DNA of 64,000 nt from Dicyema japonicum (Eukaryota > Dicyemida > Rhombozoa > Dicyemidae). Location of the stretch: assembly GCA_011109175.1 (NCBI GenBank), contig RDEW01000007.1:1130295-1194294 (forward strand), given 5' to 3'. The number at the start of each line of letters is the position of its first letter. The stretch's first letter is position 1. A program made the translations under genes and the position numbers. The notes under the pieces are model-generated. The model worked only from the letters and a program-made list of their open reading frames with translations, had not been told where the DNA came from and did no database searches. Shown here piece after piece: positions 1-64,000 of this stretch.

Positions 1-64
1 AACTATTATGATGTTACAAATGTTGCTTATAAAAAATAAAAATAGGACTAGATAATGTACTAAG

Positions 65-464
65 TTAATCAGAATTATTAAAGTAAGTATTGGCTCCACG
101 TTTTTCTAGATATATTGCTGCAGCAACACAGCCGTTCTGTATTGCCATGTGTAGTGGGATAATAGTTCGTTGTTGAGAATGTCAATATTAGCATTGTGTT
201 GTAAAAGTATTCGAATTATTTCCACATTATCTAATTTAGTAAAATTAAAACCACAAAGACAGGCCCAATGGAGAGGAGCAAGTCCTCCACATTCATTATC
301 TCTAAAATTGGGGTCACAATGTGTTGTCTTCAAAAGGTACTCCACCAATTGTTTGTTCTGACTATAAACAGCATAGTGAAGGTCAAATGAATAATTTTTG
401 TTTATTTCAACTAATCTTAAATCTATGTTTATTATATACATTTACTAGATTTTGATGTTCTCAT
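65..464 (-). CDS. Small ankyrin-repeat protein, one frame break
   Basis: The gene encodes about 118 residues with at least three ankyrin-type repeats, a protein-binding fold; the partner is unknown. I see a 19-nt first exon from the ATG at 464-462, a 23-nt intron at 423-445 and a 21-nt intron at 231-251 containing TTTTACTAAATTAG. The second intron is a multiple of three with no stop, so an unspliced reading adds seven residues inside a repeat. Removing it gives PLHWACLCDNVEIIRILL, which has proper repeat spacing. Near 173-179 the frame slips by one base, and the continuation PLHMAIQNGC lies in another frame up to the stop at 65-67. Exons plus one base total 119 codons. The slip could be an assembly error or true decay. 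Confidence 0.6.
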
Positions 465-1927
465 TTGATTATGTTTGTTCGACAATACACAATAAAACTT
501 TAAAACCTCAACAATTTTATCGTCATTTCTGGATTATGTGGTTTCGACAACATTTAACACAAATGGGTGCTCTTCGGCGGACAACGAATGCTATACTTTC
601 TGTTTTTTGTCTTTATGTGCTTTATGTTACTGTTTCACGACTGAGATCTTACGTAACTACTCGAGATCTCCTTTCGACAAGGACATACTAAACCCTGACT
701 CTTTTTTGTGTTAGAAATCGTGGGATAATTTTTTTGCAAGTTTTTCTTCACGAAGCTAAAGAATGACCTTAATAAGGACCACTTTACGAGCTCCCAAGAG
801 ACGTACATTGAAGACAGCAAATATTAACTCCCCTTAACCCACTCATGAACGTTGGAACTTTGTAGGTATGATGTTTGAAAACCTCACATGTATTGCTGCA
901 AGGCCATGGTTGACTGAAATAGATTAATATTCTTTCTTGCAGATCGAGCGCTAGGAAGTTTTCCAAACCTTCTCTTACGAGATCATCAAACTTGGTTTGG
1001 ATCAGCCCCCAGGAATGGGAAGAGACCTTAAAAGATGACAATTTTTCACTTTCACGTGAAAGATCTCTCACGTAATGTGACGTGCGTCTCATTTACTGGT
1101 CAAGGTCACTGTTTTCCCCGATGAAGGCTCTTCCAAACGGAGGAAACAGTCAACTATCGGAGATCGTTGCCGCTTCGTCTACTAGAAACTTCCGAAGCTG
1201 TTGGAAGACTTAGTAAAAACAGTCATTAATAAAACTAGGATTCGATTATGACGCAATTCAAGGACCACCGCAAACGGAGATGATTTTTAAGTTGCATAGG
1301 AAATTCCATATCCTCGACATTGCCCACTGTTTTCTAGCAGCTAAAGCTTGATTTGTTGCTAATATTTTATACATTCTACTTAAGTTCCTCACATTTCCCA
1401 CGGGGTTCATGCAGTTGAGCCAGTCTTCCAACTTCGGATACTGTATTTTCATTAATTGCTTCAGTAGGAGGGACACCAGAGTTTGTTTTTGCTTTGCGAA
1501 AACAAAGGTGTCATGTGAAAGTCAAAATATATGTATTTTAACATCAACGACCCTCTAATTGGATAAACTTGTGTATTATTATTTATTGTCGTATAGTATG
1601 AGAACCCGCGGCCATCTTCGTGTCCGGGCTAATGAGTCAAACTTATCAGTCCAAAACATATGGTTACAGGAGTCTTAATGAAACCAAAGGAATCACAATA
1701 TATCCATAATAACCACAAGTATTGAACCGAAACCGAAACCAATTTATTCAACAGTAAATAAGGATTTAGTTTAAGGGATATTTAAACGTGTCCGCCTATG
1801 CGGCCTAGACACTTCCGATGCACCCCGTCTCCATTTAGTCTCTTTCTATCGTCGGATCCTATCGATCCTTTTCTCTACAATATATTTGACCGGTGTTAGA
1901 ATCTTGTCTTCTTCAGTACTGAGAACA
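465..1927. other. No gene recognised; decayed repeat sequence
   Basis: I find no convincing gene here. Reading frames are short on both strands. Around 1135-1215 the forward strand resembles the end of the restriction-like-endonuclease LINE family found whole at 41969-42831 (a match to IGDR followed by an aromatic-rich stretch). The rest shows no recognisable family. Confidence 0.4.
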
Positions 1928-5063: not shown

Positions 5064-5178
5064 TGTGATTAATATAGTCTAGTTCTCTGAATGATCAGAT
5101 TTCTTGTTTGTGACTGGATTTGGGGGTGGGACCCAAAACACTAGAGGCTGCTTTTTGTGTAGCAACGACTATTTCCTC

Positions 5179-5930: not shown

Positions 5931-6156
5931 AATTTTTAATTTCTAACAAAATATTGAAAATTAAATAAATTATTATTGAAAAGTAAAATTTATTGATTAT
6001 AATTAAATTAATTGTGAATGCTGTATTCAACTTGAGTGCAATTGTAATAAGCATATATTTCCTTTGCAATCATCAATAATGTTGATTCTAATAATAAGAC
6101 CATTATTACCAATATTTGAAATATTACAACTTATTTCCTTCACTAATAGAATATGC

Positions 6157-7380
6157 TTACCAGTATTTATATTTTCTTGACAACAAATCACCCCCATTAT
6201 TAAGCAAACTAATTCGTTTAACTCGAAACCCTGTGGTTAACGGATAGTATACAAGAATTATGAAAACTCCCTCTTTTTCCGACAAATTACGAGAGTCAGT
6301 GATGTCGTAGAGTGCTCTGAGTATTTTGTTGACTTGTTTGTAATGGAATTTGCTAAAAAAATTGAAATAGGAGACTAAATTCTTTGTCATAATTTTGCAG
6401 AGTCCTCTCTTGTCCTTTTCTGGATTAAAAATCTTTGTAGCTTCTTGTACATTAATCTCCACCATAGACGAGAGTGAGTAAATGTTTTTCAAATAAAGTT
6501 CCGTGTAATTCTTCATCAGTTTTACAGGTAAATTGATTTGATTTTGGTTAACCAGACGACTTTTGAAATAGATGTGATTCCTTTGGAAGTCATCAAGGAT
6601 AACTTTATTATCCACTGTAATCTACAATACATGCAAATGATTACAGTCGTAGCATTCATAAAAATGAAAATTTTATTGACCACAGTGGCTGATGAAGAAG
6701 ATTCTGAAAATAAGTTAAATCTAACCATTTGTGATGAAATAATTAATTATAGTACCGCAATTGTCGAATCCTTTACTTCCAATGAAAACAGTGGCTATGT
6801 TGGTCAATTTAGACTTGTAGTACTCCTTATGTATTTACCATAACCAACCATTATCGTGAACACTCCCTTCGAAAAAGAAATCATAATTTCCTTCATTTTA
6901 ATTCTTTTTATATTTGCAGTTTTGTAAATCTCACTAATGTCGTTTATGCTCCTTGCTAGTTTGAAATAGTAGTCTGGGTTGTTTATCTCTCTCGTGAAGT
7001 CTTTTACTATTCTGTCAAGATCTGGAATGGGGAGACGAACCCATTCGAATTCTTCCAATTTATGCTTTATATCTTTAATCATTTTCGAGTCTCGATTTAT
7101 GTTCGGTGATGTCAAACAACAGTTTTTTATTTCTTTAGACAAGAGTATAAAACTAGATTCTTTGTAGGATCCCACGTCCTCGTTTCTGACTTTCCCATAA
7201 ACTTTTTCTTTTTCTTTAATCTCGTATTTTTTTATTTTTTCAAACAAATTCAACTTTTCCAGCAAAAAAATATAAACGTCGTTAAATTGTCTGTCTACAT
7301 AAAGAAGGAAGAGGGGACTGTTGATGAGGAAGTTCTTGACTTCCTTGTTTAGTTTGTTAATGATGACTATAATCTACAAA
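6157..7380 (-). CDS. Unrecognised spliced gene
   Basis: I do not recognise this protein. Three reverse-strand reading frames join through short introns into one chain of roughly 330 residues or more. The first block runs from about 7380 to 6850 (charged, helical, with EEFEWVRLPIPDLDRIVKDF). Introns of about 23, 22 and 23 nt near 6820-6850, 6710-6735 and 6624-6650 lead into the block ending at 6157 (…GVFIILVYYPLTT). The joins keep frame and fit the intron size seen elsewhere. Both ends are uncertain: a further exon may follow below 6157, and the 5' part could belong to the gene at 7466-9025. No catalytic motif, signal peptide or clear membrane segment is visible. Confidence 0.5.
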
Positions 7381-7465
7381 TAAATTGATATACTACACTG
7401 TCAATGTCGCCTACAGCCAACAAGTAGGATGTTAATGAAACAAACTCACGTGCTTAAATTATGAC

Positions 7466-9025
7466 TCATAAACAACCTATTTCGTACTTTTGGTATCTTT
7501 TCTTGATTAACATGAGATTAATTTTTCCGAATAAATCACCACCGTTCATAATTTTGGTGATAATAGTGATTCCCACAAGTTTCTGGTTGTGATAGGCCAA
7601 TATTGAGAAACCAAAAAAATCATTTAACATCAATTCGTTTAGGATTTGCTTATTTTCTTTTAAATTTTTTCTCAGCAGTTTCATGACGTCTTTATTGAAG
7701 AGTTTATAGTTGAATTGATAGAAAGATATTCCATTTTCCTTCTTCAAAAAGTATTTTGAATAATATTCTTTGGGATTCCTCGGTTTTAAACGATTTATGT
7801 TTTTTTCCGTCGACAAAAATCCATTTAAAACGATTTGACTCTCTGAATTTTCACTGATCCATTTGTGTGTAAGTGTCTCGTAGAACTCTCGGTTGAAATA
7901 AACAGGGAAAATCGTTGGGGAAAACTTTATGTGGACATGTTTACTTTTCTTGTTATCTGCAATTAGTTGTGAATTAAAAGAGTCTAGCAAATTGATATTA
8001 TTAGGATGGTAGTAGTGATATTTGTCAATCATATCCCTATCGATCCTAAAAACGTTTTGATTGTAGTAGTCTGGCGTTCTCTACCATTAATTTAGATCAT
8101 CAATACCAGTTGGTCTACTGGTGAATTCATTGCCCAATAGGGGACGTCAATCTATGATTAGTAACAACTGAAACCTTGGAAATATCAAATTCAGTAAGCT
8201 GATGAGAAAAGACCGTTGAATAGCTATTACACATTGTTTTTGGAAGACCCGTGAACTCCATGATGTGACTATCTGTATTGTTAACGAGGATTGTGGACTT
8301 TATTTAACACACAACTTACGTAAATGCAGTTGAATGTTGTCAACAAGTAGGTAATATTTTTAAGGAAAAAGTTAACGTGTTCCTTCATTTTAGTTTGATC
8401 GAATGTCGACTTGATTATAAACACTCTTCCTATATTCCATAATAGTCGTGGAGTTACTAAAATATAAGCTATTATCTCCATATCATCAAATTTATACTAA
8501 AATGGTAATTTCCAAACATACATAGACTTTAGTGTTGGAGATTCGGTTGTCATCATCACACACCAAAACGTCAAAGTAAACTTTATTGTTGTTTAATTTA
8601 TTAATAACATAATTCACTACACCAGTGTTGTCGATCAAATTGAGTATATTTTTGTTTACATCGCTTATTTTGATCACTTTCATGTCAATACTGAACAAAT
8701 TGATGTAATTTTGAATATCTTGGTTGTACGTCAAAAACTTGTACTGTTTGAAACATTTTTGGAAGATGTAGGAATTTAATATTTCAGAATTGAAACATCC
8801 TGACATATAAGTAGTAAAATTCATGTTATTAGGATCTCCAAATAACTCGGTTTTATCTTTATAGGCATAGCCTAAGAATTGATCCATCATTATGATCATT
8901 ATATAATTCTGTGTGTTATTAGCCTTGCAAATGGCATAACTAAGTAATAATTCCTTATCACAATTAACACACGTGGAGACTTTATTCTTTAATTCATCCA
9001 AATCTGCATAGTATTCATTATTCAT
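7466..9025 (-). CDS. Unrecognised spliced gene, five exons or more
   Basis: The gene starts at the ATG at 9025 (MNNEYYADLDELK). It continues through introns of 25 nt (near 8488-8512), 22 nt (near 8298-8319), 23 nt (near 8139-8161, containing TTACTAATCATAG) and 26 nt (near 8080-8105). Spliced, the exons give one open chain of about 440 residues with no stop. The C-terminal part (ILAYHNQKLVGITIITK) is loosely reminiscent of the core strand of GNAT acetyltransferases, but I cannot support that name. It may continue into the gene downstream at 7380-6157. The splice pattern is firm; the function is unknown. Confidence 0.6.
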
Positions 9026-13162: not shown

Positions 13163-14967
13163 TTAATGAATAGTAATAATATCAGTCAACATATCAGACT
13201 GTTGAATAGCCCCAATATCCTTCAAACCGTCAATAAACTTATAGCAGTTATCCCTCAATTCCTCATACTTCCCAGAATCAATCAAAATCATCAAATTACA
13301 GCAATAATCAGCAAAGGGACAAATCACATCATTACCCAATAACATTCTCTTCATTGTACATAACAACTACCAATAACTATATCCCTACCTCCCAACACAT
13401 CTCCAGCACTTCTTTATTCACTTCCACTCGCTTCAGCACCACCAAGATACAGTCATTCACCAACGCCCATGACCACCGTTCCATCACACACGTGGACACT
13501 ATCTGAGAAAAACAGCCCAGACTCTCAAAAAGTCGAATAGCTCTCCAAAGTGAGTCATAAAAGTAAACAGCCTCACGACTATGACGTTTCTGGAGGACTC
13601 TATCACATTAATCACATAAATACTCCTTCGAATACAAAGGAATTGATAGTTTAAGAGACTCATCCACCTTTGCCTTTATAATTCCGAACAACTTTTGAGC
13701 CTCCTTAGAATCGGGAACTGGAATTGGGTACATTGTAAACAAATGTTTCACAATTTCTACAAAACGAAGAGTTGTCTCATAGCACGTTGGATCCCAGGCC
13801 TCAGAAACGATGTCTACCGTTATCATTGACAAATACCAGCAAGTCTTGAGACCACAGCCTTCTCCACAACTAGAGGGACCACGTGACAGTCTCTCTGGTC
13901 AAATTCATCGGATGTATTCAACGAGTACTTAATCAGAGTTTTAAACCATCCAAAGTCCTCAATCTTACGGTAGACATCACTAAGGGGATTCCAGTTAATA
14001 AGTTCCAAGCGGACAAACGGGGTCACCATTTTGCACAAAGATAGTCCCCCATACGACTTATCGTAGCTGTCACGACAAAAAGTCTTCCATTCCGAGAATT
14101 TTCGGCAAATTTCATTCACATTGCAATACTCCTCAGCAGTATCCTCAAACAGGGATCTGGCTTCAACCACAAACTGTTCATTCATCTTCTTCTCCTTGAA
14201 GTTTATCAAAGACTGGGTCAGTACGTGTTCAATCCCCAACATCTGACGTTTATAGGATGAGGTACCTTCTCGTTGATGCAATCCGCCAAAGTCAAGATGT
14301 AGTCCTGAATAGACTGATAAAACTGGTAGGAAGACTCAAGGTTAGGTCTCTTTTGTTTTAACCTCTCAAGTCGAGCAGATGTCTCCGTCATTCGAGTTTG
14401 GATCCCTTCACGGTCATCTGTCGAAGTCTTGGTATTGATTTCCTTTAATTTCTCTTTCATGCTATCCAAAATCTCATCCCCTGTTCCAACCCACGTGGGA
14501 ATTATGACCTGTTGGTTATCCACTTTTTCTTCCGTTTGTTTAACGACGACAGAATTAATTCCTTTACGGATTTGTTGGTTTTCCCAGTCGTCTTCACTCT
14601 CTTCTAATTCCACATTGTCTTCAGAGGAGTCGTAATTTCCAAGTTTTTCGGCCTCCCTGGTGATCAATCTGCTTTTGCGGGCGTCGTAAATTTCCATGGA
14701 ATCGGGAATCTCCCTGGACTGTTGAGCAGGCAATCTAAATTTATGCTTTTGTTTATTATCCGGGTTTTTGATATCGAGGGAGACTCTGCTTTTTGGTTGT
14801 TCCTTCTTGGTCATGGAATTTGGAGTAATCGAGTTTGAGACGTCATCCATGAAGCTAAGAGAAGAGATTCCATGAGACTTATTTAGGGAGTTAGTAGTTT
14901 TGATGTAAATTATGTCATCATCTGAATCTGATAATGTCTTTTTACGGATATTTCGTTTGGTTGACAT
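13163..14967 (-). CDS. paxbp1: PAXBP1/GCFC1 homologue
   Basis: Five exons are joined by introns of 23, 23, 24 and 22 nt at 14243-14265, 13814-13836, 13600-13623 and 13367-13388. They total 571 codons with the frame intact. I chose the ATG at 14967 because it gives MSTKRNIRKKTLSDSDDD, matching the basic-then-acidic start of the family; an upstream GTG frame is not a start. Residues around 100-130 hold the family signature ESEDDWENQQIRKG, followed by a coiled coil and the GCFC domain (GLSLCKMVTPFVRLELINWN, then SEAWDPTCYETT). In animals the protein links transcription factors to histone methylation, and its relatives sit in the late, intron-lariat spliceosome. It is a shorter form than the vertebrate protein. 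Confidence in the family is high. Confidence 0.9.
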
Positions 14968-16222: not shown

Positions 16223-18447
16223 TCATTGAGGATTATCAGAATCTTCAATAAATTTAGAATGATATAGTTGTCTGTCCTGAATTAACTTTTTAATATGATA
16301 ATCCAACTAATATAATATAATAATAATAACATTATCCCTCTCCTCTTCCATAATAGACTCTAATTCTTCATAGTGCTTAACTAACAAGTCCACCTTCTTT
16401 AATTGAACATCCACCAACTGTGCAAACAAATCCCTCATTTTCTGTTCATCCAATGAAGCCAATTGCTTATAATAATTATAATTAAAACCATTGATTTAAC
16501 AGAAGCAGCCCCTAAAGCAGCAGAAGCAGCGACTTGTATATCCTTATTAGAAGTAGACTGTAGTGAATTAAATTTGTCTAATAATATAAATTAATACCAA
16601 TAGCTGCATCTGTTGCTGCCTTGGCCACTCTATTATCAACAACTGATGATAAAAATGCTACAGTAGACATTATTGGGTTCTTTGAAGATGAAAATAACAT
16701 GGAAATGTGTGGTGCTATTATTTGTAAATAAATATAACCATTATCCCCTTCAATAAAGGGATCTTCAATTGGTAGACGAAGAAAGTGAAGTATACACTCA
16801 TCGTGTGTTCTTGAGCCAACATGTGAGCTTACTTTATGCCATTCATCCTTATATTTTTCAATTCCCTCCAAAAGTAAGAGAGTTTCCTATAATAAATACT
16901 GATAACAACTTGTTGAGTCCATGAATTAGTGACTGGTTTATTAGTCTAATATAATATAATAATTACTGTAATTGATGATTCACTGATTACAGAGGTAGGA
17001 TGCAAACAACTGTCACCAATTACAGTAAAGTAAGCAGTGGAGGGAGGTCCCACTTCTTTAGGTTATGTTCAATTTGATAGTTAATAAGTCCCCATTGTTC
17101 AAGAAATGAGTGAATTCTTAGTATAGAGCAGGCATCACCAGCCAAATTACGTCGACAAGCAGTGAATGTCAAAGGTTGATTTGGATTAATCCGATAAGAG
17201 TCAATAATAAAGTTACGATAAGCCAAATAACAAAATATAATAAAAAAACTACATTTCAGGTGTTTTTGATTGTTTAGAGCCATCAAAGAACTCAGTAAAG
17301 CCCGTTTCTCAATGGGATTAATAGAGGAGTAATTAAACCATGCTGAATAAGAGGGGATAATAATATTGTTATTTTGATTAGCACTTGTATATTGGTAACA
17401 GTCATCATCAGTAGTTGATATTCCATATTCAACTTGTTTTGCTTGACTATCAAAATCACCCTTTCTTGTTTCAGGAGATAATTTACGTTTCCTTCCACGT
17501 CTTTTATTATTTCTATCAAATAATCTCTAATATATAATAATAATATAAACGGAAATATCCTCTAACGGATAAATAGATCTGCGTTGTCCTGTGATAACAT
17601 AATCCTCCTCATTCATCAATTCATTAAATGAATCACTATCAACCAGCCAATTTGCCCTCAACTTTATCATCACCACTACTAATACCTTCCACTGCCTCGG
17701 ACGATCTAAATATTCTATTTCTTCGAAATTATATTCATTCGTCCAAATATCATAGGAGTCTGGGTATTCACATACGTGTACAGAGTACCAATCCTCATAA
17801 ACACTTACTGCCCTAACATAATCACCACTCCCACTATCCATTAATGGGTATAATATGTGAGTTGCCTCCTTCTCGTTATCTACCACTGTTATGTCAAGTC
17901 TCTCCCCAATAACTAACAACTGGTCTCTCACTTTGTCTAATATTATTTATAATAATAACCCTCAATACTACCCATTATGTATATTTTTGGTATTAATTTT
18001 GGAAATGTTGTATATATTGATTTATACACTTTATTCAACATTAACACATTCTTGTCCTTTCTTGATGCTAAATTATAATCTATTCTTTTCCTATTCGTAA
18101 TACACCCACTATACCATCCTTCATCATGCTTGTATATGTACATCTCTTTTAATATATTACATAATATTCCATCAGCACTGTGGTCATCAAAATATTTCAC
18201 TGGAATTTGAGGACATGACGTCTTTTCCTTACCAATTATTTGAGATTGAAAAGACAATGTCTGAATTATAAGACTTGCTAGGTTCTTCACTGTTGGAACT
18301 TCATTTATATACTTATTTATATTTAAAGCTTACTGAACTACAATTCTCTTCTAACCACCGACGTACTTCTTCTAATGATGATGTAAAATATGGAGAATTG
18401 TAGTAGTCTATGCATGGAATACCATTATCCTTTTTCTCCAATGTCAT
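16223..18447 (-). CDS. smarcc: SMARCC/BAF155-170 (SWI3) chromatin-remodelling subunit
   Basis: Thirteen exons are joined by twelve introns of 20-24 nt. They encode a core scaffold subunit of SWI/SNF (BAF) complexes. In order there is an N-terminal module ([35 protein letters not shown]) and the SWIRM domain ([55 protein letters not shown]). Then come a SANT domain ([34 protein letters not shown]), [15 protein letters not shown] and a C-terminal coiled coil. Two single-base losses (about 17295 and 17057-17059) break the SWIRM region, and the intron at 17231-17252 ends in TG instead of AG. Adding the two bases gives 651 codons. Two introns (24 nt each) are in frame without stops. The vertebrate proteins are about twice as long, with a proline-rich tail missing here. 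Confidence 0.92.
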
Positions 18448-26088: not shown

Positions 26089-26738
26089 TTGACTAATTGG
26101 TCTTATTAGGCCCCTTATTAATATTCGTGTTAGGTTATCACTGCGATTAAAGATATTTGTGCATCTTAAGCTTTGTTGCATGAATGAATCACTTTTTGGA
26201 AACTATTTATTTTATCTCCTATATAATCGACTTAGTATATTCCTTATTGGTAGTATTAGGGATATCTATGTTTCCCACGTTGATAACATCAAAAATTGAC
26301 GTAGTAGGATGACAATTTCTGACTCAAAATGAAGGCCTGGAGTACTATCTGGACGACTGACAAACTAAATCTTAATATGTAGATGCATTTATCATTACTA
26401 TGAAGTACCAAATAGTTTGCTTGTATGAAAAACCGTTTATAAAAATATAATCATCATTTTTTATGTTTTTTAATTAATTTTATTGTCCAATTGTTTGGAT
26501 GTCCTCATTAAAGGTTAAATGAACTCATATCAAATGAAAGAGTTGTTCTTCTTTCTCGAAAGTCTACTTTTAATTTGGAGGGAACTTCACTGTTCTTATT
26601 TTTTCGGTTTGCGGATTTATTCAAATTTTCCTTAGTCAAAAATTCGTTTACTAAACTTATTCAACGTGCAACCTATATCACCATCAAAGTAATTTTCCAC
26701 ATAACTAGCACGTAAAGACAACGTGTTTAAACTATCTG

Positions 26739-38640: not shown

Positions 38641-38949
38641 TTCTAAATGTTTTTTTTGTTATTCTTTTTTTATAACGTCTGAATTTTTTTATATAATAAC
38701 AGGAGTCGAAGAAATAATATTTGAGAAGTCGGAGTCGTGCTATATTTTACCGACTCCACAGCCCTGCTAGAAAGCATATAATCCTTGAAGAGCCCCAGGA
38801 AAAGAAAATGATCTTTTACGTGGCTGATTTGTTATTAATGTTTTTGTTTATATTTTAGAATAAAATACTATTGATCTTAAAAAATTAAAATGAAGTTATA
38901 TTATTATAATAAATGATGTAAAAATTACAATTTTTAAATTTCAAGTCAG

Positions 38950-41490
38950 ATGGGGCGTCATTTGTTTTTCGAATCATTGGAAGATTTAATTTTTAAAGGG
39001 ACATCAAACTCAGTAGATTTGATTAAATAAACCACAGGAAGAATTGGAGTCTAAAATTCTTATCCAGCAGAACAGTAAGCTAGTTCAAGCTCTCAAACTT
39101 TCAAAACAGCAAGTAAATGAGCTGACTAGGAAAATCAGCGCCTTTGAGGAGAGAAGGGACGCTGATGACGCCCTCCTAGCCCTTATCAACAGGAATTGGA
39201 ATCAACTGAACTTGGAGTTGAAGAATATGATTTACAACCACCTTGGTGAGGTTCCAATGGAGGTAGAAAACGGTTGTAAGTCTAATTCTCAATTCTAGAA
39301 AGGCTAACTGAGTCGCTACAAGACTTTCAGTTGAAACTGTCAGGAATGGAAACTGGGAAATTGGACACTGATCTAAATGAGAGGATCGCTCAGTCTAAAA
39401 TGTTGACTAATCACATTATTTCAGCATTTTCCAAGTTTTTTTCATTGTTTTACATTAGAATTAAGGAGAACAACGAAAAACTGATCTCATTCCTTAAGGA
39501 TGTGAAGATTGACCCAGAATATCCTAAGTCTGAGAACCCAACTGACCTTGTGGCAGAGTTAACCGCCGTAAATTGCAGCCTAAATGACAGGCTCTGCACT
39601 TTGGAGAGCACAAACAGTGATCTGATGTACAAACTAAACGAAATGACTGACAAGTGTGTGAGTGTGACCAACTCTATTGCTGTAATGAAGAGAAAAATCG
39701 ATGAATTGAACTACAATCTGACCCAAGAGAGAATATACTCCGTAAAACTAGAATTCAACCTCCAACAGGCGCAGGAGGAGGCAGAAAGGGTGTCCACACA
39801 TAAGGAGGAGAAAAAAGAGGACGGGGAGATTCAAAAGAGCAGTTCTGATAATGAAAATATCGATATCCTCCAGCAGGAACTTAATCAAGTTAAATCACAG
39901 TCCTCAGCTCGACTTATCGAGTTGGAGCAGATGATGAAGGAAAACGAACGGTTGTCCCTCGAATGTGGGCAGAAGGAAATAAAAAATGAGACCGCTGACA
40001 CGTCGATTGAGGTGGCGAAACTAAAAAGACAGTTCGCCAACGCAATAAACGATATCAATCGACTCAAAACTCGCTTGGAAGAGGTCAACGAGGAAAAATT
40101 TATGCTGAAATTCAGTCAAAACCAACTCTCTGAGGACATGAAGGTGATGTGTGGCCTAATTTGGCAGACTCAGGGGAATATCCTTGAGAAGGGGGCCAAG
40201 AAAGAGATTGAACGGTTGGACCGACTGCTTCTGCTTAAGGAGAGAGATTACGAAAGTTTGCGACTGGAGAATGCTCAGTTGGTAATAATCAGCGAGAATA
40301 CGAGTTTATAGTGTTGTTTATGAAAGATGAGATCCATAGGGAGATGAGACATCTTATAAACAGTCTTCAGTCTTATAACAAACAACTAAAGGACGAAAAT
40401 GTCAAATATCTCACGAAAATTAACGAAACTATAACTCAGAATCCAGTCACATTGGAAAGTCACACCTCTATTGACAAGTTGACTGATTTGGAGGTGGTCT
40501 TACTGCTGATTTGTAGTTGGACGAACTTGCATTGCAGTCTGGTCAGTCAGAGCTAACAGTAGACTGAAGGCAGCTTATAGAACTGAGGAGGAGTTGAATA
40601 GGCGCATAAACGAGATGAGAGTCTATATTGAGGATCAGAAACGGAAATTACAATGGCACAAACAACAGGAGGAGACTCTGATGCAGGAAATGGACGTTAC
40701 TGGGGAGGCGTTGGAAGATATGCAGGAAAGGAACAGAAAACTGCTCGATCAACTCTCTACGAAGGAACAGGCGTATATCACGCTGCTCTCGGAGGTGGTT
40801 TGGGTGATGACTGGCAGAGAATAAAGGATAAGCATGTGATTGAGCAAATGAATGAGGAGAAGAGGTCATATAAGGAGCACGAGGCCGTGATGCAGCAAGA
40901 GATTGAGAATATTGGTAGAATAAACTCCAATCTGAAAGAGAGGGAGCACTCACTGAACAAAATAATAAGTAATTTGGAGAACGAGGAGAATTAAGGAGGA
41001 GAAGATAGAGAATGTGAACAGACGGTACAACCAGATCCTACAAAAGTGCGATGAGTTTAAAATAATATCCGACTCGCATTAAAACCAGCTTAAGGAAGCA
41101 CAACAATTGCTCGCGGAGAAGGGTAGTACGATAAGAAACGATGCCTTCCAAATTAGAAGACTTGAGGTGGTGATTTGTGAAACTTGTAGGAGGATGTCGG
41201 TAATTTGAGAGGACAGCTGGATAGGATCTCTAAGCTACGAGGAATGGATACCAATGACACGACATTAATGGACGAAATAAAGGAACTCAAGGTTGTTATG
41301 GTTATTATGGTAGGACCGATTGTTGTGTCCGTGTTGTCACGTGCATAAGAAGAACGCAGTGCTAACAAACTGTTTCCACGTGTTCTGTTTGGAATGTCTT
41401 ACCCATTTGTATCACATTAGAAAGAGAAAGTGTCCAAAGTGCAATTCAAGTTTTGATATTAATGAATTTAAACGTCTTTGGTTTGACTGA
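38950..41490 (+). CDS. bre1: Bre1/RNF20-RNF40 E3 ubiquitin ligase, with frame breaks
   Basis: Nine exons and eight introns of 22-26 nt encode the ligase that monoubiquitinates histone H2B during transcription. The N-terminus SNSEELESKILIQQNSKL and ALLALINRNWNQ match RNF20. A long coiled coil follows, and the C-terminal RING is intact (CPCCHVHKKNAVLTNCFHVF, CLEC, then CPKCN and the family end FKRLWFD). A 24-nt in-frame intron sits at about 39438-39461; unspliced it would add FFSLFYIR to the coil. One base is missing near 40564 and the frame slips again near 40991. A TAA follows CAT at 41080-41082. The RING and flanks look selected, so these may be sequence errors, but real damage cannot be excluded. 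Confidence 0.88.
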
Positions 41491-42986: not shown

Positions 42987-45153
42987 TCAAAGAAGTCTCC
43001 CTCTGCACTTACTACTCCCACATTTACACATAATTATCTTCCCAGGTACACTACCAACTCTATAATTATAATCCCAAGTGAGTTCAGTACCCGCAATCAA
43101 TGTCCTACAATCACAACAATCGCATACCGTTTAGTGAAATAAGCAATATAAGGAAATCGCAAATCATGAGAATCAATGAAAATGCTCTGAATGAACAGGT
43201 TCGGGGAACAACTGTGCTACAAAATAACACAAACTACTACATTAGTGAATCTCCCCAAATTCCCGGTTACTTTCGAATCAACCAAATAGACCATGTTGTC
43301 CCTACCGAAAAACGACCGAAACGGTACATATGAAGTGTTCAGTGAGTTAGAGTTCCTCTGTTTCTTAGAGGGTCTCGGAGTCCCACTAAAATGTAGTCAA
43401 AAATCTCAACAGCTCAGAGGAATCAACACTTTCATTCTCAATAGCCGAGTCCTCAGACAAGATAAGTCCCTTGTCTTCCTCACAACGTTCGATAAAGTCA
43501 AGTTCAGCAAATACTCGTCCCCAAATTTGATCCCATCCTTGGTGGCCTGTCGGTCACTCAGAAGCATTCCGTTATACATGCACACAAAACTGTTGGCCGG
43601 GATGTCCTCGAGGCACCTCAGTCCCCATCCCCTACCAATAGGGATAAAAACTCACTTTTCTGGGGTATTAAATACCTGTAAATGCCATTTTAGTCCATTT
43701 TGACCCACTCGATTTCTGCAGTTGACTGAACACTGGCACTTTCCGTTGCACTCAAATATCCTATCGGTATCTAACCCAACCAACCCGGTGGTCACACTCT
43801 TCCCTGACTTTAGCATTCTGTTTGAATAGCTCACGTTAGTCTGTGCCGAGTCATTTGTCAGCCTTCTGCAGGCACATGTGTCAGAAATCTGCGATTATAC
43901 GGGAAACTACGCATTCATCAGTACAGTCACAACAAATCAGGAAACCCTGATCAGTTTCCACATTGACCTCCTTAGAGGATCTCCGGGAAACTAGATACTC
44001 CACGTAATCTGGCAGTTTATTGTCCAGAGAATTTACACAACTAACGGGAATAGGTTCCTTCCCCAACGATAAGTCATCGAGGAACACTTTAACCTACAAA
44101 ATAAGGAAAAAACGACATTTGCAGGTTCAAAACGACGACTTGGGCGGACATTAACGTCCATAGTGAACATATCTATGACCAAATCACTCAATGTGATCAG
44201 CAAATACTCATCAATCTCCTCCAAAGTAAAAAACTTCTTCCACAGGGGGATGTGTACTCGATTTGGAATCCGGAGAATATAATTATTCGTCTTCTGGCCC
44301 ACCCACATACCAGGGGATATAACAAGTAGTTCATATTCTCCCTTCCCACGTGGGATAACGATCTGACATTTTTCTGACAAGAAGGATTGCATATGTGGGG
44401 GACTTGCAATCAGCACAAGTGGATACCATACTCCATTGGTTTTACTAAGAACTGATTAGCAGGAATAGAGGGATTCAAGTAACGAAAAGTTCCTCCAACA
44501 GGTTTTTGTTTCCAAGAGGAACTGGATTTGGCCTCAAGGATAACTTGAGGACGAATATAAGTTGAATAACGGTGGAACCATTGATCTGTGTGGGCACTGA
44601 CAAGAACAAGAGAACAGTCCACTTTGATTACCTTTCCATTTACCCTAAGAGTAAGTAAAGTCCCAACCATTCCATTTGACTAACCATGAGGACCTCATCC
44701 CCTTCGCAGTAATTACCCCCACATTGACCCTCTATATTGTTTCTAATTCCAGTTATTCCTATTCTGCTAACCAAGCTACGAAAATCCAAGGGATCTAAAG
44801 TCTACAAACTGACTTACTTTGTTCAAAAACCGAAAAAACTTGTTCAAAGTATAAATACAGCAATTTATCATTTTGAAGTTGTATCAAGTACCTCCACTTG
44901 TTCGTATCACTGGGAGGCTCCAGTACAAATCCACGTGTCAAGGATCCATCTGAGACTACGACCACTTGACTGCCTTCATGCAATGTTCTCGTAAGGTCAA
45001 CCAAAGCCACGTGGTCTCCGTAAAGAAGATGAAATTCCACCTTTGACCTCTGAATAAAAAAAGCAGTCGAGTTTTCACACTTAAACGTTTCTATAACGAT
45101 GCCGGGGATTTATTGGTCTTCCTGAAGGGAGAAAAACACCTTCGAGTACTCAT
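42987..45153 (-). CDS. setdb1: SETDB1-type H3K9 methyltransferase
   Basis: Ten or so exons carry introns at 44795-44817, 44403-44426, 44094-44116, 43889-43910, 43632-43655, 43386-43410, 43217-43240 and 43105-43127 (22-25 nt). Order is Tudor ([20 protein letters not shown], then [15 protein letters not shown]), MBD ([13 protein letters not shown]), pre-SET ([34 protein letters not shown]) and a split SET domain ([43 protein letters not shown]). It ends in post-[16 protein letters not shown] at 42987. Catalytic NHSCSPN and the last tyrosines are intact. The insert splitting SET is about 50 residues, against several hundred in vertebrates. Frame breaks by one base occur at A/T runs near 44228-44233, 43509-43511, 44662-44667 and probably 45056-45062. 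The start at 45153 is tentative. Confidence 0.92.
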
Positions 45154-45700
45154 GCAATCCCCGTGAATAATATTCAAGTGAAATTATTTGGATTAACTGC
45201 TATTATTAATTTATTATAAACGGTCAGATTGCAGGAAAATATGATATCAGTGTTGGAGATATTGATAAAGAAGTGGAGATTTCCTTGAAATTATGAGAAA
45301 ATTACTTGAAAAACTGCAAGAATTTAAAATATTCACGATTTTTCTAAAAATTTTAAAAATTATGACTTTAATGAAAGATTTGTTAGCAGTTTTTTCAAGT
45401 GATCGGTATAACGAGTTTCCATATCCAAGCATGAGTTGAGAATGATGTCAATTTTGTGTTCATATTTGTCTATCTGCATGAGTGAGTCATTTTCCTTAAA
45501 TTTTGTGTCAATTTGAGTATTAATAAAAGTTTGAATCTCATCCTATAATACTTATGCACATCAAACTATCATAGCGAAATTTTAAATAATTTTAAAATTA
45601 ATTATTACATTTTATTGAAATTTAAATTTACTGTCCTGATACCGGTGACAAGGTCTCCTTCAATTCTTGGGCTAATGTTCTTCAGGCTATTGTAACTTTA
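45154..45700. other. Spacer upstream of SETDB1
   Basis: AT-rich sequence with no recognised gene; it should contain the SETDB1 promoter on the reverse strand. I see no clear element. Confidence 0.4.
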
Positions 45701-49783: not shown

Positions 49784-52284
49784 ATGAGTCATGAATGCAG
49801 CAAGCAATTTATGAAAAACATTTTAAGGACTTTAGATTACTTGTATGCTTTGCTTGATTATCCGGGGGATGATGAAATAATATATATAATCGAAAAAACA
49901 TCAGACGCGTTAATTGAGAACATTTCAGATATTTACGATACCTTAAAATCAGAGTGACTTTATACTTATAACTTTAGAGACTTTGAGGGATTCGATTATG
50001 AAATAAACAACAAATTGGCTGTACTCTATGAATGGATTGATGAGATTGTTGTCTTTAATAGAAACAACATTTCCACTAATTTAGTAAAGTCTCACATAAC
50101 ACGACTAAAGAACTCATTAGAGGTATTTCCTGTTATTAACAAAGTCCTTTTATATTAAAATGACTACCAACAAAGAGTTACCCGGTAGACATAGAAAATC
50201 CCTTTCAGAGACTCAGTCTAAAATTCTTAAAGATGTTCAAAATGAGTTTCCCAACACGAATGAATCAATTTGTTTTAAAAAACCTGTGGCTTTATTCAAC
50301 AAAAAGGAAATTTCAAACTCTCAGTATGACAAACTTAATGAGATTCAAAATTGGTGTCCCAGGACGAATGAACCAGCCATGAATGAAATTTCAAACTCCC
50401 AACATGAAAGCCATCAAAAAACTACTATGCCCGACACACAAAAAATTTTAGATTCCCACTACGACATGCTTAGAAATATTCAAAATGAGAAAAGTTTGTA
50501 TGTATTTCCGGATCTACCGAACATACGTGGAATCTCAGATAATCAATATGCCATTCTTAAAAAGATTCAAAGAGACGTTGATGTCGAGTATTTTGAGATT
50601 GAGGACGATTTGACCATTGATGATTCTGCTTGTAGTGAAATAATATATATTGTAGACTCTAGTGTAAAAAATAATTCGTCACACAACGACTTGTCCCTTC
50701 ACAACTCTAACGAGACATATGCGTGTGTGTATCGTAATTTGATTGGAAAAAATGATTGCTTTCAAAGTGGATTTAGCTGTATATGATAGTATTATTAGAC
50801 AGATGGGGACATTTATGCCAGTAACACTAAACATTACGTTAACGTGGATGAAATGAATCCTGCTAAGTTACTTATGGGTCACTACATTGCCCCCAATACA
50901 GAACTGGTGAAATACGAATACGACAGAAAGTACATCACCAAGGAAATAATTGAGGAAATAGTCAACCTTAACATTAGCATAGTAATTGGGATATTATATT
51001 CTCAGTGTGAAATAAAAACAGCCCCTATCGATGCCATTATTGGTTTGGCTGTCATTTCAGATCGTCTTTCTAAGGATTTTCAATGTATTTTTGTGAACTC
51101 TTATCGCAACTTTATCAGTTCGTTTGAATTAATCAAAAAACTCCAGATTTTATATTTCATATCACTGGATATTAGTAAGGAAATGTTATACGATGACGTT
51201 CCACATTGTATAATCAGCTTCTTGATAACCATATTTGACTCATTGGTGTAAGCTTTTTCTTAAATTTTAGAATTTCTGAGATTGACTTGGATTTGGTCAA
51301 GCTTGTCTCCAATTTCACACACACATTAATATTCTTTGGTCAATTTTGGGAGGTTAGGTTAATCAGAAATGAGTACAAAATAAAAATATTAAAGTTATAT
51401 TTTTCCAAATCAGATATTATGTTGCGAGAATTCGAAAGTTTTAGCAAAATTGTTAGATCAACCTCTTCTCTTAAAGAAATTGTTAAAAAATTCAGTAATT
51501 GGTTATTTTCCTAATAATTTTTAGTGATAACATTCTGGATCTTCACTCGTTCGAAATCGCCAAACAGTTGACTCTCAGAGACTGGAATCTGTTCGAATCT
51601 ATAACCCCCACAGATGTGTATGATTGGATCTATCGGAGGGCTCACATTACTTCATATTTCCCCAAAGTAGCCTACTTTCTGGATTCTTTCGACTCGACGT
51701 CCTTATGGTTGAGTCTATAATTATAGAAAGGTGTCAACAACAAATTTTGAACGAAAAAAACGACAAATCACGTATAAAAGTAATAAAGAAACTTGTAAAG
51801 ACCGCAAATGTAGTTTGCGTTGTGATATTAGTATTTACTTAAATTCAAGAATATTCATTCCTACTTGGCCATTTCATATTCACTGGATTCTCAAGACTTC
51901 TTCATGTTGAACCTTCCTTCCAATATAAAAACAAGATTGAGTGATATCATCGACTCTGCTAATTGGAAGTTGTTTAAGGAGTACTCACCAATGATAGAAT
52001 TCTGTGACTCTCATTCGGCAATCCCTCACTTTGTATGCAAGTTGTAACAGTTTTAGTGGGGTGACTCTCAACTCAATACAAACCTTAAAGGAGAGGTGAA
52101 TCAGAATATCTGTGAATTTGAAAACTGTCGTAAACAACTGGAAATATTCAAACAACTCAAATTAATGCAAGAAAGGTATGTTTGTGTTAATTTTAATAGA
52201 AAATATAATTTCGAATGGAACGATAAAGCATACCAAGTTCTCAAGGATATTAACCCCACAACATTTTCTAATTTTAATTCCTAG
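49784..52284 (+). CDS. rapgef1: C3G/RAPGEF1-like Ras-family exchange factor
   Basis: From the ATG at 49784, exons joined by introns of 24 nt (about 49955-49978) and 22 nt (about 50135-50156) give an N-terminal helical region like that of C3G (MKNILRTLDYLYALLDYP, LAVLYEWIDEIVVF). The centre (50160-50780) has about five degenerate repeats of type ISNSQYDKLNEIQN instead of the Crk-binding proline-rich segments. A REM module (FQCIFVNSYRNFISSFELIK) and a CDC25 catalytic domain follow (DLHSFEIAKQLTLRDWNLFE, then IHSYLAISYSLDSQDFF). Later introns are 23, 23, 22, 24 and 24 nt. A one-base loss lies near 51684-51689. The join near 50780-50820 is unresolved, so the front could be a separate gene. The protein would activate Rap or a related GTPase. 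Confidence 0.75.
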
Positions 52285-53099: not shown

Positions 53100-55123
53100 A
53101 TGTTAGTTTTTTATTTAACAACGGTACATTTATCTTAGTTATAAAGATATCAAACATTCTGGCATTCGATTATTTTGCTAATAGTAAAAAGCTGCATTTT
53201 GACAAGTATGAAAGGTAATATATAATAAATGATTAATAAACCATAAATTTTTTACAAATATAGATTTTTGACTTCTTTATCGATTGTTCAGGTATTAATA
53301 TCACTAATCCTTCACAGCCATGTTTGAAATTTGGATATTTGACTCCTCAGACATCACCCACAAAGCACTACCCGACTCTGATCAGCACGTGTTGGAATGA
53401 AAAGTAGTGATATATGAATATTCGCAGAATCAGAGTAACGAGTATAATAGAAGATATGATTTATTTGGCTGAACAGGGATTAAGTGACAAAGAAGTAAAA
53501 AATATTGATTGATTTAGATTACTTTAATTCAACAAATTACCATTGTCAATGACACCATTAGTGAAGGTATTGAATGCATAAATTTATAATTTAGACAGCA
53601 AAGATCAAAGCTCAAAATTACATTATCACTTTAACAACTTAAAGTACACTAATCACGATAAACTTCCCACAAAGACCGATATTCATCTTAGATTTATCAT
53701 TGGCCACAATGTAATGTCACGTTTTATCAGAAGGGTGACCATGTGGGGAAAATATTTGGGGGAAACGTTGACAATTTGTTAGAGGAGGTTGTAACTGTTC
53801 TTAATTTGGTATCTTGGTATTGACTCATTTAGTTTTATATGCCATATATTGGAATCTCGAAAGCTGGTGGAAATGAAAAATATATATATTCGAGTGCCCA
53901 CTACCCCTCCTTTACGACAGTTCAATCAGAATTTGAAAATTGGGAGGATGTTGATGTGGTTGTTGCAGTGACGTGGTATTATGATGATTTATGATAGCAA
54001 CACTGAATGTGATTACTCAATAAAAGATTCAATTTGTACAAGTCGAGCCATCGCTTTTATTGATGTTGGGTTTTTATTCAATTTAAGGTGTGTGATGACA
54101 GTGCTACCCACGTGGCTTATCGATTATATCTTCTTTTAAATAATATATTAAGTTCTGTCTCGAATGATCAGTTTTATCAAATTTTATCACTTTAGTTTGC
54201 CAAAACGTGCCCGAGCATGTCTATCTGACAAAATTGTAAAGGTCTGATAATATTGATATCATAGTCGTCTGTGTTATGTGGCAATGGAGTGATTGACAAG
54301 GGAGAGGATTGTGACTGCTCATTTAGTAAAGTAATATTCCATTGTAATTCACAGGATTTATGTGATCTGCTTAATCCCGGTTGCAATTCAGAGACCTGTC
54401 TTGAAAACAAGGAATGCAACAAATATGGCAAGGTTACATATTCACTTAGTATAGCTAACTGGAATTCCTGAAAGTGTTAACACACGTGACCAGATGTGTA
54501 AATTCCTTTTAAATTCGAGTATTCTTGACTAATCTTGATTACAGGGACTGCATCAGAAGCATCAACCACGTGCTATGTGGAAAGGAAGGCTGAAATTTGC
54601 ATGAATGGGAATGATTGTGTCTTTGAGTACATTTTTGCTTATTCTTAGAAATTTAACTTGCAAGAGCATTCTGTGTTCACCAGAGCGGACTCATTGCAAG
54701 TATATTGGTTTGGTTTACAAATTAGAAAATATTTTATTTTCAGCGGAATAAACTTCGGGGACACTTGCAAGATTTCAGACTGTTCAGATTGTAATTCAAA
54801 TGAGCCCATAAATTGCCAAGATGGAGTGTGTGGCCAAAACTCTGTGAGGCGATCTAATAATTCCATGAGTTGTATTTTCCATGAACTTATAGATTTCGCG
54901 GCAAGGAATATTTCTGTCAAATTTGATGTCGTATTCGTGTCTGGTTCGTTATTAATTGGAATAATAATTATGGTCCCTTTGATGTGGTATATTTTGAGAA
55001 GGTAATTGGTGTTATAGTCGTAGATTCCGTAAATACAGACGAAAGTTGGATGATATGTTCTATTTTAGTAATAATTTAGGAAATCCATTGACTATTGGAT
55101 GGACAATCTCCCGACAAAACTAA
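53100..55123 (+). CDS. ADAM-like membrane protein, metalloprotease site not seen
   Basis: The C-terminal half is clear. A disintegrin-type start (CGNGVIDKGEDCDCSFSK) leads over a 24-nt intron into DLCDLLNPGCNSETC. Cysteine-rich exons follow (CYVERKAEICMNGNDC; CKISDCSDCNSNEPINC), then a membrane span (VSGSLLIGIIIMVPLMWYIL) and a basic tail (RKYRRKLDDMFYF) ending at 55123. Introns of 22-26 nt separate them. Upstream pieces from the ATG at 53100 (hydrophobic MLVFYLTT) may be signal peptide and prodomain, but my exon joins there are provisional. I find no HExxHxxGxxH zinc site; THVAYRLYLLL at about 54104 lies roughly where it should be. It may be a non-catalytic ADAM10/17 relative, or I may have missed exons. 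Confidence 0.6.
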
Positions 55124-55440
55124 ACTGTGTTAATGCTTGTGGGGAATATAATAATATTTATTCTAATTTTTCTAACTTGACTTAAATATCTTTTATCAAC
55201 CAAAATGCTTTATATCGCTTATACCTTGTGGGATTGATCAAGAGATTATCACTATGGACGAGTCATACCACAATCGCATTTAAGATTTCGTTAATGACAA
55301 CCTTTACTATTATCTTATCCTTTCTAGAGGATTCGAAGGCGATTGGGACGAAACAAAGATAATCCCCAAGGGTCAAATATTTATTACTACAAGATATCCG
55401 TAAATATTTTTTTGTTTACTATTTTGTAGTCATGTTATCC
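55124..55440. other. Spacer downstream of the ADAM-like gene
   Basis: AT-rich sequence with no gene or repeat that I can recognise. Confidence 0.35.
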
Positions 55441-55449
55441 AAATTAAGT

Positions 55450-59880: not shown

Positions 59881-59937
59881 CAAAATAATATTAACTTTTA
59901 ATTGATAAAATAATATTATTTCCATAGAAACTCATAA

Positions 59938-61347
59938 ATGGATAAGTCGTATTTAGAAAAGTAAACAAAGTCTTAAGATTTAGAATAAAGGAAAATTCCT
60001 TAAGATATTCAAATAATGTGAACAAAAGTACATTTAAGGTGACTAAAGCAGATAATTCTTCGAAACCAGTGAGACTTCCTCCAATTTCACCGACAAATTC
60101 AGAATTGGGTAAAAAACCTTACAAAAATCCTGGCAAGGAATATTTAAATAGCTTAGACTACTACAACTTGGAGATTACAACATTAATGGCGAAACGACTA
60201 CAAAACCTTGAGAAGAAATATCGGCTACAAGAAGACGAGCTCATGTCGACAGTAAGTGGAGTGAGTTTAGTTGATAGAAAACTGATTTAGATAAAGTCAA
60301 GAGACAACTAGAATGTGTGACCAAGGGTAATAAAATGGATTACATTTAAGACCGAGACTCCATTTCTGATAAATATGACGAGATAAAACAACAAATTGAT
60401 GAAATGGAGGTTTCTTAAGTGAATTATGTAGATTTTTTTGGCAGATTATGGTTTGATTTGGGTTGGAGACAATGATGGAAAGAGGGATTTATTAAGTCTT
60501 CATTATCAGGGTGGGCTGTTTATTATTATTAGTTATGGATGATAACTCTTATGACGAATTCATTAAGGACTGTCCAAAATAAATGAATCATTATTCCAAT
60601 TTGTATGTGCTCTTGTAAAGTAGAATCTTGACAGTCTTCCCATTTATATATATTCAAATGGGGTCCAGCTTGATTCTAAGCCATTTCGGAAATTCAATGA
60701 GCCTGAATTAACAGAATTCATAACAGATGTTATTAATGGGTACTTTCCGTCGGAATTATACAAATCATACAACAGCGGATGCACATTCGAGGTGAGGATT
60801 AGGAACACAAATATTAGATATTTGATCGAAGGAATTTTCCATATGCTAAAAACGAAATGAAATCTAACATTGTTGAATTCTCTAGTTTGGATCACAGAAA
60901 AGGTTATTCTGAGGATAATTCGTTAGACTACTCCGAATTTACCCCACTTGTCTTTAAAAGTATGAAAAATCCCCCAAATTCATTTCAAGTATTTAAATGG
61001 TTTATTTTTAGACAGCCGTCGAGACAAAGTCGTGTCATAATTTAGTTTAGAAATAATAAAATATTCCTCGATTCATTAAAATCCGGTCAGGTCGCCTTGA
61101 AAGTACGTTTGAAACCCCCAAAACCTTTAAAATACTTGATTTTCTCAAAAACGGACAAATTGAGCAATGTTATTAGATCAATCCAATATGAATGGTTATA
61201 CGTTCTGTTTATTACAGCAAACTCTTTCCTCCTTTAAATATTTACGTTTCGAGAATTGGGAAAATTGAGTCGTCTGAACGAACCCTTCAAGATATAGGAA
61301 TCACATTCTCAACGGTTGTCCACATTCACGAAAATAGAAAACATTAG
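59938..61347 (+). CDS. ubxn11: UBXN11-like SEP/UBX-domain protein
   Basis: Eleven exons with ten introns of 21-26 nt (the first at 59961-59983) encode 392 residues once one base is added in the A-run at 60576-60579. From MDKSYLEK there is a disordered then coiled-coil part, DYGLIWVG, a SEP domain (IYSNGVQLDSKPFRKFNEPE, INGYFPSELYKSY) and a C-terminal UBX fold (GQVALKVRLKPPKPLKYLIF, LNIYVSRIGKIESSERTLQD). UBX proteins are cofactors of the p97/VCP segregase. UBXN11 (socius) is linked to Rnd GTPases and the cytoskeleton, and its presence here is by domain order and motif match. The start at 59938 is supported by the frame and by the splice site after 23 nt of coding sequence. Confidence 0.88.
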
Positions 61348-61680: not shown

Positions 61681-61689
61681 TGCCGCGTG

Positions 61690-61880: not shown

Positions 61881-61950
61881 GACGTCTTACCCTTTATGCT
61901 GATTCCGGATGGACTCTGTTTCTGTAGAAGTGGAAACTGGATGCACTTAA

Positions 61951-62830: not shown

Positions 62831-62849
62831 CAACCAGAAAGATCACATT

Positions 62850-62900
62850 TCGCAGTGAAATGTTCACTGATGACGGCGTCACTCGTCAAGCCGTAGCATC
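62850..62900 (-). repeat. Short SINE fragment
   Basis: ACTGATGACGGCGTCACTCG at about 62868 is the reverse complement of the body of the SINE at 36505-36800. Only about 45 bases are kept. Confidence 0.6.
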
Positions 62901-64000
62901 GAGATGCTTGGAACCTTCAACCGAAATGTACAGATTCGGACTAGGGACCTTCAGACCTCTTTCCCTGCATCCGTTACACTTCGCCAACTGGCGATACACT
63001 TTTCCGTCTCTTCCGTCTCACCAATGTGAGTTGACGATCGAGCCAGGAACCAGCTTTGGAAGTCTTGTCATATGTTCTCTAACAGATATATTACGTCCCA
63101 CATTCCTCTCCTCTCTATACTCCAGAAAACCGTTGGTCAAACGCAGAAAGGGGCAACATAAGATAATTTGAGTATACAAGCGGGCCACACTAACAAATCT
63201 GATTTGTCCTGAGGTGCCGCTTTTACATGACATTGTTCGTATATCTGAAATGTATTAGTTGTTCCTACCTTAATCATGGATGACAAGTGTTCATCAGTCA
63301 GCTCTGTTCTCTAAGAAGATTTTATGATTTTATGAAAGAAAACAACTGTCCACAACATAGAACCGAACATTGCCATAATCCTCATTGAAAACTTTATGAA
63401 GTTTGTAAACTTTTCAGGATGTCATGAATAAACGCCAGATATCCCCATTGAGGTATTTTGCCCTGAGTGTAGAGTCAGACTGCATTTCTAATAATCCATT
63501 GTCAGCGCAGTGTTCTTCCAAACAAGTGGACGCACAGAATAAGTGACGTCATCGGATCCATCTAACTCAGGAGACGCCACATGTCTTGTCGGCATTCAAA
63601 AGAATCTATTTTTCATTACCTGTAGACTATTTCGACGAGTTCTGAATTGTACGTCAGCCATTGTCCTCTGGATCAACTGTGCTTGAATGAGGTGTCTTCT
63701 GGAACGTGTCAGGATCACAAGATTAGTTAGCTTGGTTTTACTTTCACCACATTATTTTAAATTTTCTCTCGTGTCAGCCTATAATCAATCATGGGGGCTT
63801 TCAATGATTGAACTACACTTTCTCCCTTTCTTGATTATATGTCCGCATTAACAACTGAAAATATTAGATGCTTTTGATGAAATCCAAAAAAGGAGGTAAC
63901 TTGGATGTAAAAACTGGTGGAAGAATAGTAATGAGTGAGCACAAGCGAACCCTAAATATAAAAAAAAAAAAACCAGGTGTTTAACTTAGTCAATCAAGAC
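62901..64000. other. No gene recognised; distant repeat B copy at 63540-63610
   Basis: Open frames at 62860-63171 (+) and 63018-63233 (-) overlap and show no family. About 63540-63610 (GATCCATCTAACTCAGGAGA, then GTCGGCATTCAAAAGAAT) resembles 47605-47660 and, more loosely, repeat B. The end has an A-run at 63960-63972. Confidence 0.4.

Follow-up and report, generated by a model that had tools for sequence, protein, structure and literature searches.

The stretch of Dicyema japonicum DNA analyzed here (64 kb; hereafter, the window) has a GC content of 36.5% by base counts and comes from a dicyemid, one of the minute parasites that inhabit the kidneys of octopus and squid. The second of two gene finder models, both described below, predicts 137 introns in 13 gene models in the window, with lower-scoring models excluded from these counts. 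A total of 126 of these introns are 20-28 nt in length and the median is 23 nt. The initial annotation had placed about 90 GT-AG introns with lengths clustering at 22-25 nt, a claim that is borne out and that understated their number. Twelve of the 13 models were taken as ordinary genes and each of these includes at least three introns, in agreement with the earlier claim that nearly every gene is spliced by micro-introns; the thirteenth (3524-4660) was judged transposon-like and is not trusted. Seven of the 12 ordinary genes encode a Pfam family above the cut-off and five do not. On the reverse strand, the seven include a PAXBP1/GCFC gene (13163..14967 (-), 570 aa) with four introns of 23, 23, 24, and 22 nt; a SMARCC gene with a SWIRM domain (16223..18447 (-)) in which nine of 10 called introns are 20-24 nt; an ARHGEF11-like RhoGEF-PH gene (26508..29296 (-), 772 aa) with 20 introns, 18 of them 20-28 nt; a KIF9 gene (30533..32905 (-), 655 aa) with 17 introns of 21-27 nt; and a SETDB1-like gene (42987..45572 (-)) that encodes Pre-SET and SET domains along with a Tudor domain below the cut-off and that is interrupted by 16 or 19 introns depending on the model, most of them 21-25 nt. 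On the forward strand, they include a mitochondrial L7/L12 gene (25546..26088 (+), 157 aa) with introns of 23, 24, and 22 nt, and a RasGEF gene (49784..52284 (+)) with 12 or 13 introns of 22-24 nt, depending on the model.

The five ordinary genes without a Pfam family above the cut-off encode proteins of 920 aa (6008..9025 (-); 11 introns of 22-26 nt) and 361 aa (33465..34663 (+); five introns of 22-24 nt), a coiled-coil protein with a C-terminal RING (38950..41490 (+)), a membrane protein with disintegrin-like cysteines recognized by eye and no Pfam match (53414..55185 (+); 15 or 18 introns depending on the model), and a 175-aa coiled-coil protein (59938..60582 (+); five introns of 22-26 nt). 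The RING-encoding gene is Bre1/RNF20-like by eye, with the RING below the Pfam cut-off; it has 10 introns in the first model, and the second model (38582-40994) differs in its ends and does not include the RING. A 23-nt intron in the gene for the 920-aa protein, GTTTCAGTTGTTACTAATCATAG (8152..8174 (-), as placed by the finder), may serve as an example. It ends with TTACTAATCATAG, one of two sequences that had been quoted to illustrate the branch site. The other, TTTTACTAAATTAG, was located at 231-244 (-), where it ends one probable 21-nt intron; the open frame that holds this intron lies at the edge of the window (106-441 (-)) and encodes repeats that look ankyrin-like by eye. The window also carries reverse-transcriptase fragments (PF00078) at 2326-2691 (-) and 58171-58581 (+), and a Tc3-like transposase fragment (PF01498) at 11644-11994 (+). 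A minority of predicted introns, in the model at 42987-45572 (-) and in others, are 44-88 nt, and some of these may be errors.

Intron borders, lengths, and protein support

The gene finder combined frame-specific coding statistics with explicit intron lengths and was trained in the absence of any gene annotation. The training DNA comprised 262 kb, namely the 64-kb window and 20 stretches of approximately 10 kb from the same genome (assembly of 64.67 Mb in 191 contigs); these additional stretches (198 kb of the 262 kb) were picked around protein-kinase matches. The starting prior scored only GT and AG and was flat for lengths of 15-90 nt, with lengths and splice columns then learned from the finder's own calls; GC-AG borders fall outside the model. 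Training with GT-AG yielded 312 introns, 286 of which were 20-28 nt, with a sharp peak at 22-25 nt and modes at 23, 22, and 24 nt. The same procedure applied to seven decoy dinucleotide pairs yielded 95-149 "introns" per pair, of which 19-38 were 20-28 nt (38/149, 23/125, 30/148, 20/95, 37/121, 19/110, and 27/118). The length peak was produced by GT-AG alone and by none of the seven decoys. It was recovered when the finder was trained on the window alone (92 of 110 introns at 20-28 nt) or when training was restricted to the remaining 20 loci (146 of 166). From reversed DNA, the same finder gave four introns, two of them 20-28 nt, and from Markov-shuffled DNA it gave none.

A second model that adds intron base composition predicted 366 introns in the 262 kb, 326 of them at 20-28 nt, and 335 of the 366 are no longer than 30 nt in this sample, of which 198 kb lies around kinase genes. 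When splice columns and lengths were instead kept flat throughout, the output was noisier (207 introns, 108 of them at 20-28 nt) and the mode was still 23 nt. A raw count of GT...branch...AG strings that ignored reading frames revealed hardly any excess over shuffles, indicating that the evidence lies in the reading frames and in the encoded proteins.

Spliced products scored above the curated Pfam cut-off for ribosomal L12, RasGEF, Pre-SET, SET, kinesin, KIF9, RhoGEF, PH, SWIRM and its associated regions, and GCFC. Thus, of the domains that intron removal had been said to restore, those of L12, SET (SETDB1-like), KIF9, RhoGEF, SWIRM (SMARCC), and GCFC (PAXBP1) were recovered; UBXN11, which perhaps corresponds to the 175-aa coiled-coil gene, had no Pfam support. 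Three exact protein lengths had also been given, and of these the 570 aa was reproduced at 13163-14967; the lengths of 664 and 171 residues, which had been tied to no gene, match no model. Four proteins were compared with their best-matching PDB chains, and the junctions of the 36 introns that fall inside the aligned blocks were checked by eye. No alignment gap was present within two residues at 30 of these 36 junctions (9/9 in the KIF9 motor, 4/5 in the KIF9 tail, 4/6 in the SETDB1-like protein, 7/8 in RhoGEF, and 6/8 in SMARCC), and the remaining six adjoin a gap or a block edge.

By eye, inserts of eight and five residues in SMARCC relative to human SMARCC2 mark two probable 24-nt stop-free introns, one that corresponds to the eight-residue insert (18091..18114 (-)) and one beside the five-residue insert (17662..17685 (-)). 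The finder missed both, indicating that stop-free introns with lengths divisible by three are under-counted. Elsewhere in this gene (17212-17283 (-)), seven residues are extra relative to the human protein and a GT-AG solution was not seen. Among introns with lengths divisible by three, 30 of 87 are stop-free, compared to 126 of 239 introns of other lengths. This shortage could reflect translation-based surveillance, a reading that is not claimed here because the finder misses precisely such introns.

Actin genes outside the window provide a further view of intron borders. In one of them (L056), two introns of 27 nt were recognized by eye, the first following PKHL and the second following NPK, and their removal brings conserved actin residues together. 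The finder recovered the second of these introns and set the first 4 nt off, in another frame. The intron after NPK occupies the same place in two paralogues; it is 27 nt long in one of them and reaches 78 nt in L057, where the site is conserved. The actin matches included no single uninterrupted full-length copy usable as a processed-gene control. Near the C-terminus (3' end) of L056, the frame is broken with no visible intron, possibly due to decay or an assembly error.

That last observation, along with the few models that hold implausibly long or TE-like pieces (3099-4660), is what could be expected if frameshifts, assembly errors, or pseudogenes interrupt the frames and the intervening pieces are not spliced out. 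Such an origin would not explain why the interruptions begin with GT, end with AG, and share one length peak that decoy pairs, reversed DNA, and shuffled DNA fail to reproduce, or why protein alignments continue through the junctions. Further, in a Dicyema species, introns of such size have been read from genomic DNA compared with cDNA (PMC2222250), and an origin of the interruptions in errors or decay is considered extremely improbable. The analysis of the DNA instead confirms the predicted micro-introns as genuine and as more numerous than previously stated, and we infer from it that D. japonicum splices them out of its RNA.

Splice signals and the predicted spliceosome

Upstream of the donor, the most frequent nucleotides are A (0.45), A (0.48), and G (0.46). 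The GT is followed by A (0.48) or T (0.36) and then by no clear preference, with T at 0.40 and A at 0.30 at +4 and G at 0.19 at +5. To place these values against background, the 326 introns of 20-28 nt were compared with 3145 GTs inside exons. AG precedes GT in 74 of the 326 donors (22.7%) versus 5.0% of exonic GTs, a more than fourfold enrichment; GTRAG is present in 14 donors (4.3%) versus 2.0% of exonic GTs; and G at +5 is at background (19.0% versus 18.9%). A total of 239 of the 326 donors fit neither AG//GT nor GTRAG. The finder without trained splice columns agrees with this profile, with G at 0.51 at -1 and at 0.22 at +5 in 108 introns. Introns that allow a single GT-AG solution (16 of 294) or a unique donor (45) are few and composition-biased; in these sets, G at -1 falls to 0.31-0.33 (0.33 in the 45 unique-donor introns) and A at +4 rises to 0.44-0.62. 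The lower frequency of G at -1 weakens an "exonic" reading of the donors. A seesaw between exonic and intronic donor strength was detected and is weak (Spearman -0.14, permutation 0.0036), and G at -1 tested against G at +5 alone was not significant (Fisher 0.26).

A branch signal of the form T-N-A-Y was identified, with the A followed by 6-7 nt to the acceptor and located approximately 16 nt from the donor in introns of 22-24 nt. In 294 introns, the EM likelihood of this signal was 178.8, compared to 53.0-58.9 in five sets with shuffled interiors. TNAY with 4-9 nt after the A is present in 199 of the 326 introns, compared to a mean of 131.3 and a maximum of 156 after shuffling, and in the finder without trained columns, the motif is found in 55 of 108 introns versus 28.0 +/- 4.2 when the A is followed by 5-8 nt. 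Among 24 introns pinned by homology, it occurs in nine versus 7.8 expected, with no enrichment, suggesting that the motif is weak or that this set is too small. The branch signal is a feature of the intron population and is not present intron by intron; the TRAY-like branch site near the acceptor that had been described is upheld in the former sense and not in the latter. In a study of 41 Dicyema introns, Irimia and Roy described a 5' boundary weaker than any other they knew of and reported no branch signature (PMC2483917). The larger intron set presented here agrees with theirs in the weak donor and differs in the branch signal.

The absent preference for A at +4 and G at +5 could point to a splicing machinery that is itself altered, either through changed recognition sequences in U1, U2, or U6 or through the loss of METTL16 or SNRNP27K. 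Of 11 U1 matches (L029-L039), 10 carry the 5' end ACUUACCUGG and one carries ACUUACUUGG. The U1 body is divergent, which would fit an altered machinery, with all 11 matches at 45.7-69.0 bits and under the Rfam gathering score of 69.5. The recognition sequences of U1, U2, U5, and U6 are nevertheless standard in the copies read: GUAGUA is present in the four U2 copies read among 25 matches, ACAGAGA in nine of nine aligned U6 copies (10 matches), and the standard loop CGCCUUUUAC in both U5 copies read among 15 matches. An extra A in U2 (GAUCAAAGUGUAGUA) is present in all four copies read and was given no weight; the same extra A occurs in U2 of fly and worm. SNRNP27 and a METTL16-family exon are both present, refuting the loss of these genes as a companion to the donor pattern. 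An altered machinery is thus largely refuted for the parts tested and is considered improbable overall. Among other components, one locus includes U2AF65-like exons (best E 7.5e-22), none of which reaches the whole-family cut-off by itself, and a RED_N exon scores above its cut-off. One well-conserved U12 gene (C68:163471-163599, L054; 85.4 bits) has a standard 5' region. A U12-type intron would combine an RTATCYTT-like donor with a TCCTTAAY branch; among the 366 introns, three have a GTATCTT donor and none of these has the branch pattern searched, such that there is no convincing case of a U12-type intron.

A search of the assembly for LUC7 identified a single, LUC7L3-like locus (C53:1113962-1114705, L055). 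Its protein shares 44% identity with human LUC7L3 and 30% with LUC7L2. The tentative assignment to LUC7L3 depends on these human sequences because an NCBIfam search returned no family and yeast LUC7 was the only LUC7 protein matched in the PDB. The apparent absence of a LUC7L2-type gene is provisional, since exons were searched individually and parts of the genome may be missing from the assembly. In one model, donors form two classes, one favoured by U5 loop 1 via an exonic AG and the other by the U6 ACAGA box via GURAG (review, PMC11732430). In human cells, LUC7L3 knock-down disfavours exonic-AG sites and loss of LUC7L or LUC7L2 disfavours the GURAG class (Kenny et al. on LUC7 classes, as described in PMC11732430). 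Donors with some exonic AG and no preference for G at +5, together with a single LUC7L3-like locus, agree with this two-class model, and both point to the exonic-AG class. That most of one animal 5' splice-site class has been lost from the genome, leaving the other, and that this is linked to a LUC7L3-like-only inventory, is a speculative and rather doubtful extension. The link is put forward only tentatively, since the exonic preference is modest, most donors fall in neither class, the seesaw between exonic and intronic strength is weak, and the METTL16/SNRNP27K loss predicted alongside it was refuted. If true, D. japonicum would represent a micro-intron animal reduced to one donor class and one LUC7 and would be a natural test of the two-class model.

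Taken together, it is very likely that the introns are ordinary U2-type spliceosomal introns that have shrunk genome-wide to a near-minimal 22-25 nt and that are read by a spliceosome with standard motifs. A weak exonic AAG precedes the donor GT, the branch A is approximately 16 nt into the intron, and another 6-7 nt separate it from a YAG; these signals would be read by a spliceosome whose RNAs carry standard recognition sequences. Given that a polypyrimidine tract would not fit and that donors show almost no preference from +4 to +6, recognition may depend on intron definition within a frame of fixed size, on exonic contacts by U1 and U5 loop 1 in which a LUC7L3-type protein perhaps assists, and on proteins such as RED, which would relieve the short donor-to-branch spacing. 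The order and importance of these spliceosomal contacts are what we infer from the signals and the gene inventory.

Comparison with known small introns and implications

Introns of this size are known in animals from dicyemids, as the initial annotation stated (PMC2222250, PMC2483917, PMC6543705, PMC6736024). Reported values include a mean of 26.2 nt for 16 introns with cDNA (PMC2222250) and medians of 25 nt for 41 introns (PMC2483917) and 27 nt (PMC6543705). For D. japonicum, a mean intron length of 38.2 nt has been published, along with a genome size of 67.5 Mb (k-mers suggest about 65 Mb) and 36.7% GC (PMC6736024). The size, GC, introns, and animal gene content of the genome analyzed here fit a dicyemid. 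Dicyemid introns of 25-27 nt were published as early as 2007 and their weak donor sites as early as 2008, and the micro-introns are not new in kind. The introns described here share with those of Dicyema acuticephalum, D. japonicum, and Dicyema sp. a length that is mostly below 30 nt, AT-richness, a high number per gene, and a weak donor. They differ in having a median of 23 nt, compared to the published medians of 25 (41 introns) and 27 nt and the D. japonicum mean of 38.2 nt; in their density, at approximately 10 per window model (137 in 13) versus a published 4.9-6.2 per gene; and in a detectable branch-site signal, which was reported absent from 41 introns in 2008. Orthonectids likewise have short introns; in the orthonectid I. 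linei, the median is 57 nt and most introns exceed 30 nt (PMC6543705), unlike the 335 of 366 introns at or below 30 nt described above.

Outside of dicyemids, the 15-16 nt introns of Stentor coeruleus (PMC9505925) likewise have a near-fixed length and a branch A close to the acceptor (at position 10), followed by a tail of 5 nt compared to the 6-7 nt found here. Standard motifs characterize all major snRNAs in Stentor, as they do the four of these five (U1, U2, U5, and U6) searched and found here. Stentor is, however, a ciliate in which introns are shorter and genes that have any intron mostly have just one, with no minor snRNAs found and no preference for G at -1; D. japonicum has a U12 gene and such a preference. 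Introns of Paramecium and of the Bigelowiella nucleomorph are similar in length (~18-35 nt), high density, and a donor largely limited to GT(A) (as described in PMC2222250 and PMC2483917), but these lineages are unrelated and the introns described here interrupt animal genes. In human cells, splicing largely fails at donor-to-branch distances below ~44-47 nt, with the block at the A-to-B complex transition (PMC11291888); SMU1/RED relieve the strain of a short donor-to-branch distance (PMC6692369) and some short introns need SPF45 (PMC8363638). The same assembly strain would apply to D. japonicum, at a distance of ~16 nt rather than ~44-47 nt.

The supported and best reading of the window is that spliceosomal micro-introns pervade the genome of an animal, as they do in dicyemids. 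In the available portions of the dicyemid literature searched, no report was found of a branch signal, of an snRNA set with U12, or of a single LUC7L3-like gene. The additions made here are a positioned branch signal, U1, U2, U5, and U6 with standard recognition sequences along with one U12, a donor profile, and a single LUC7 locus. Relative to the human limit of ~45 nt between donor and branch, a distance of ~16 nt is apparently routine in this animal, the snRNAs of which have ordinary recognition sequences, and dicyemids thus offer a test bed for the minimum requirements of an intron. A loose correlation becomes checkable through the donor sites and the single LUC7L3-like gene.
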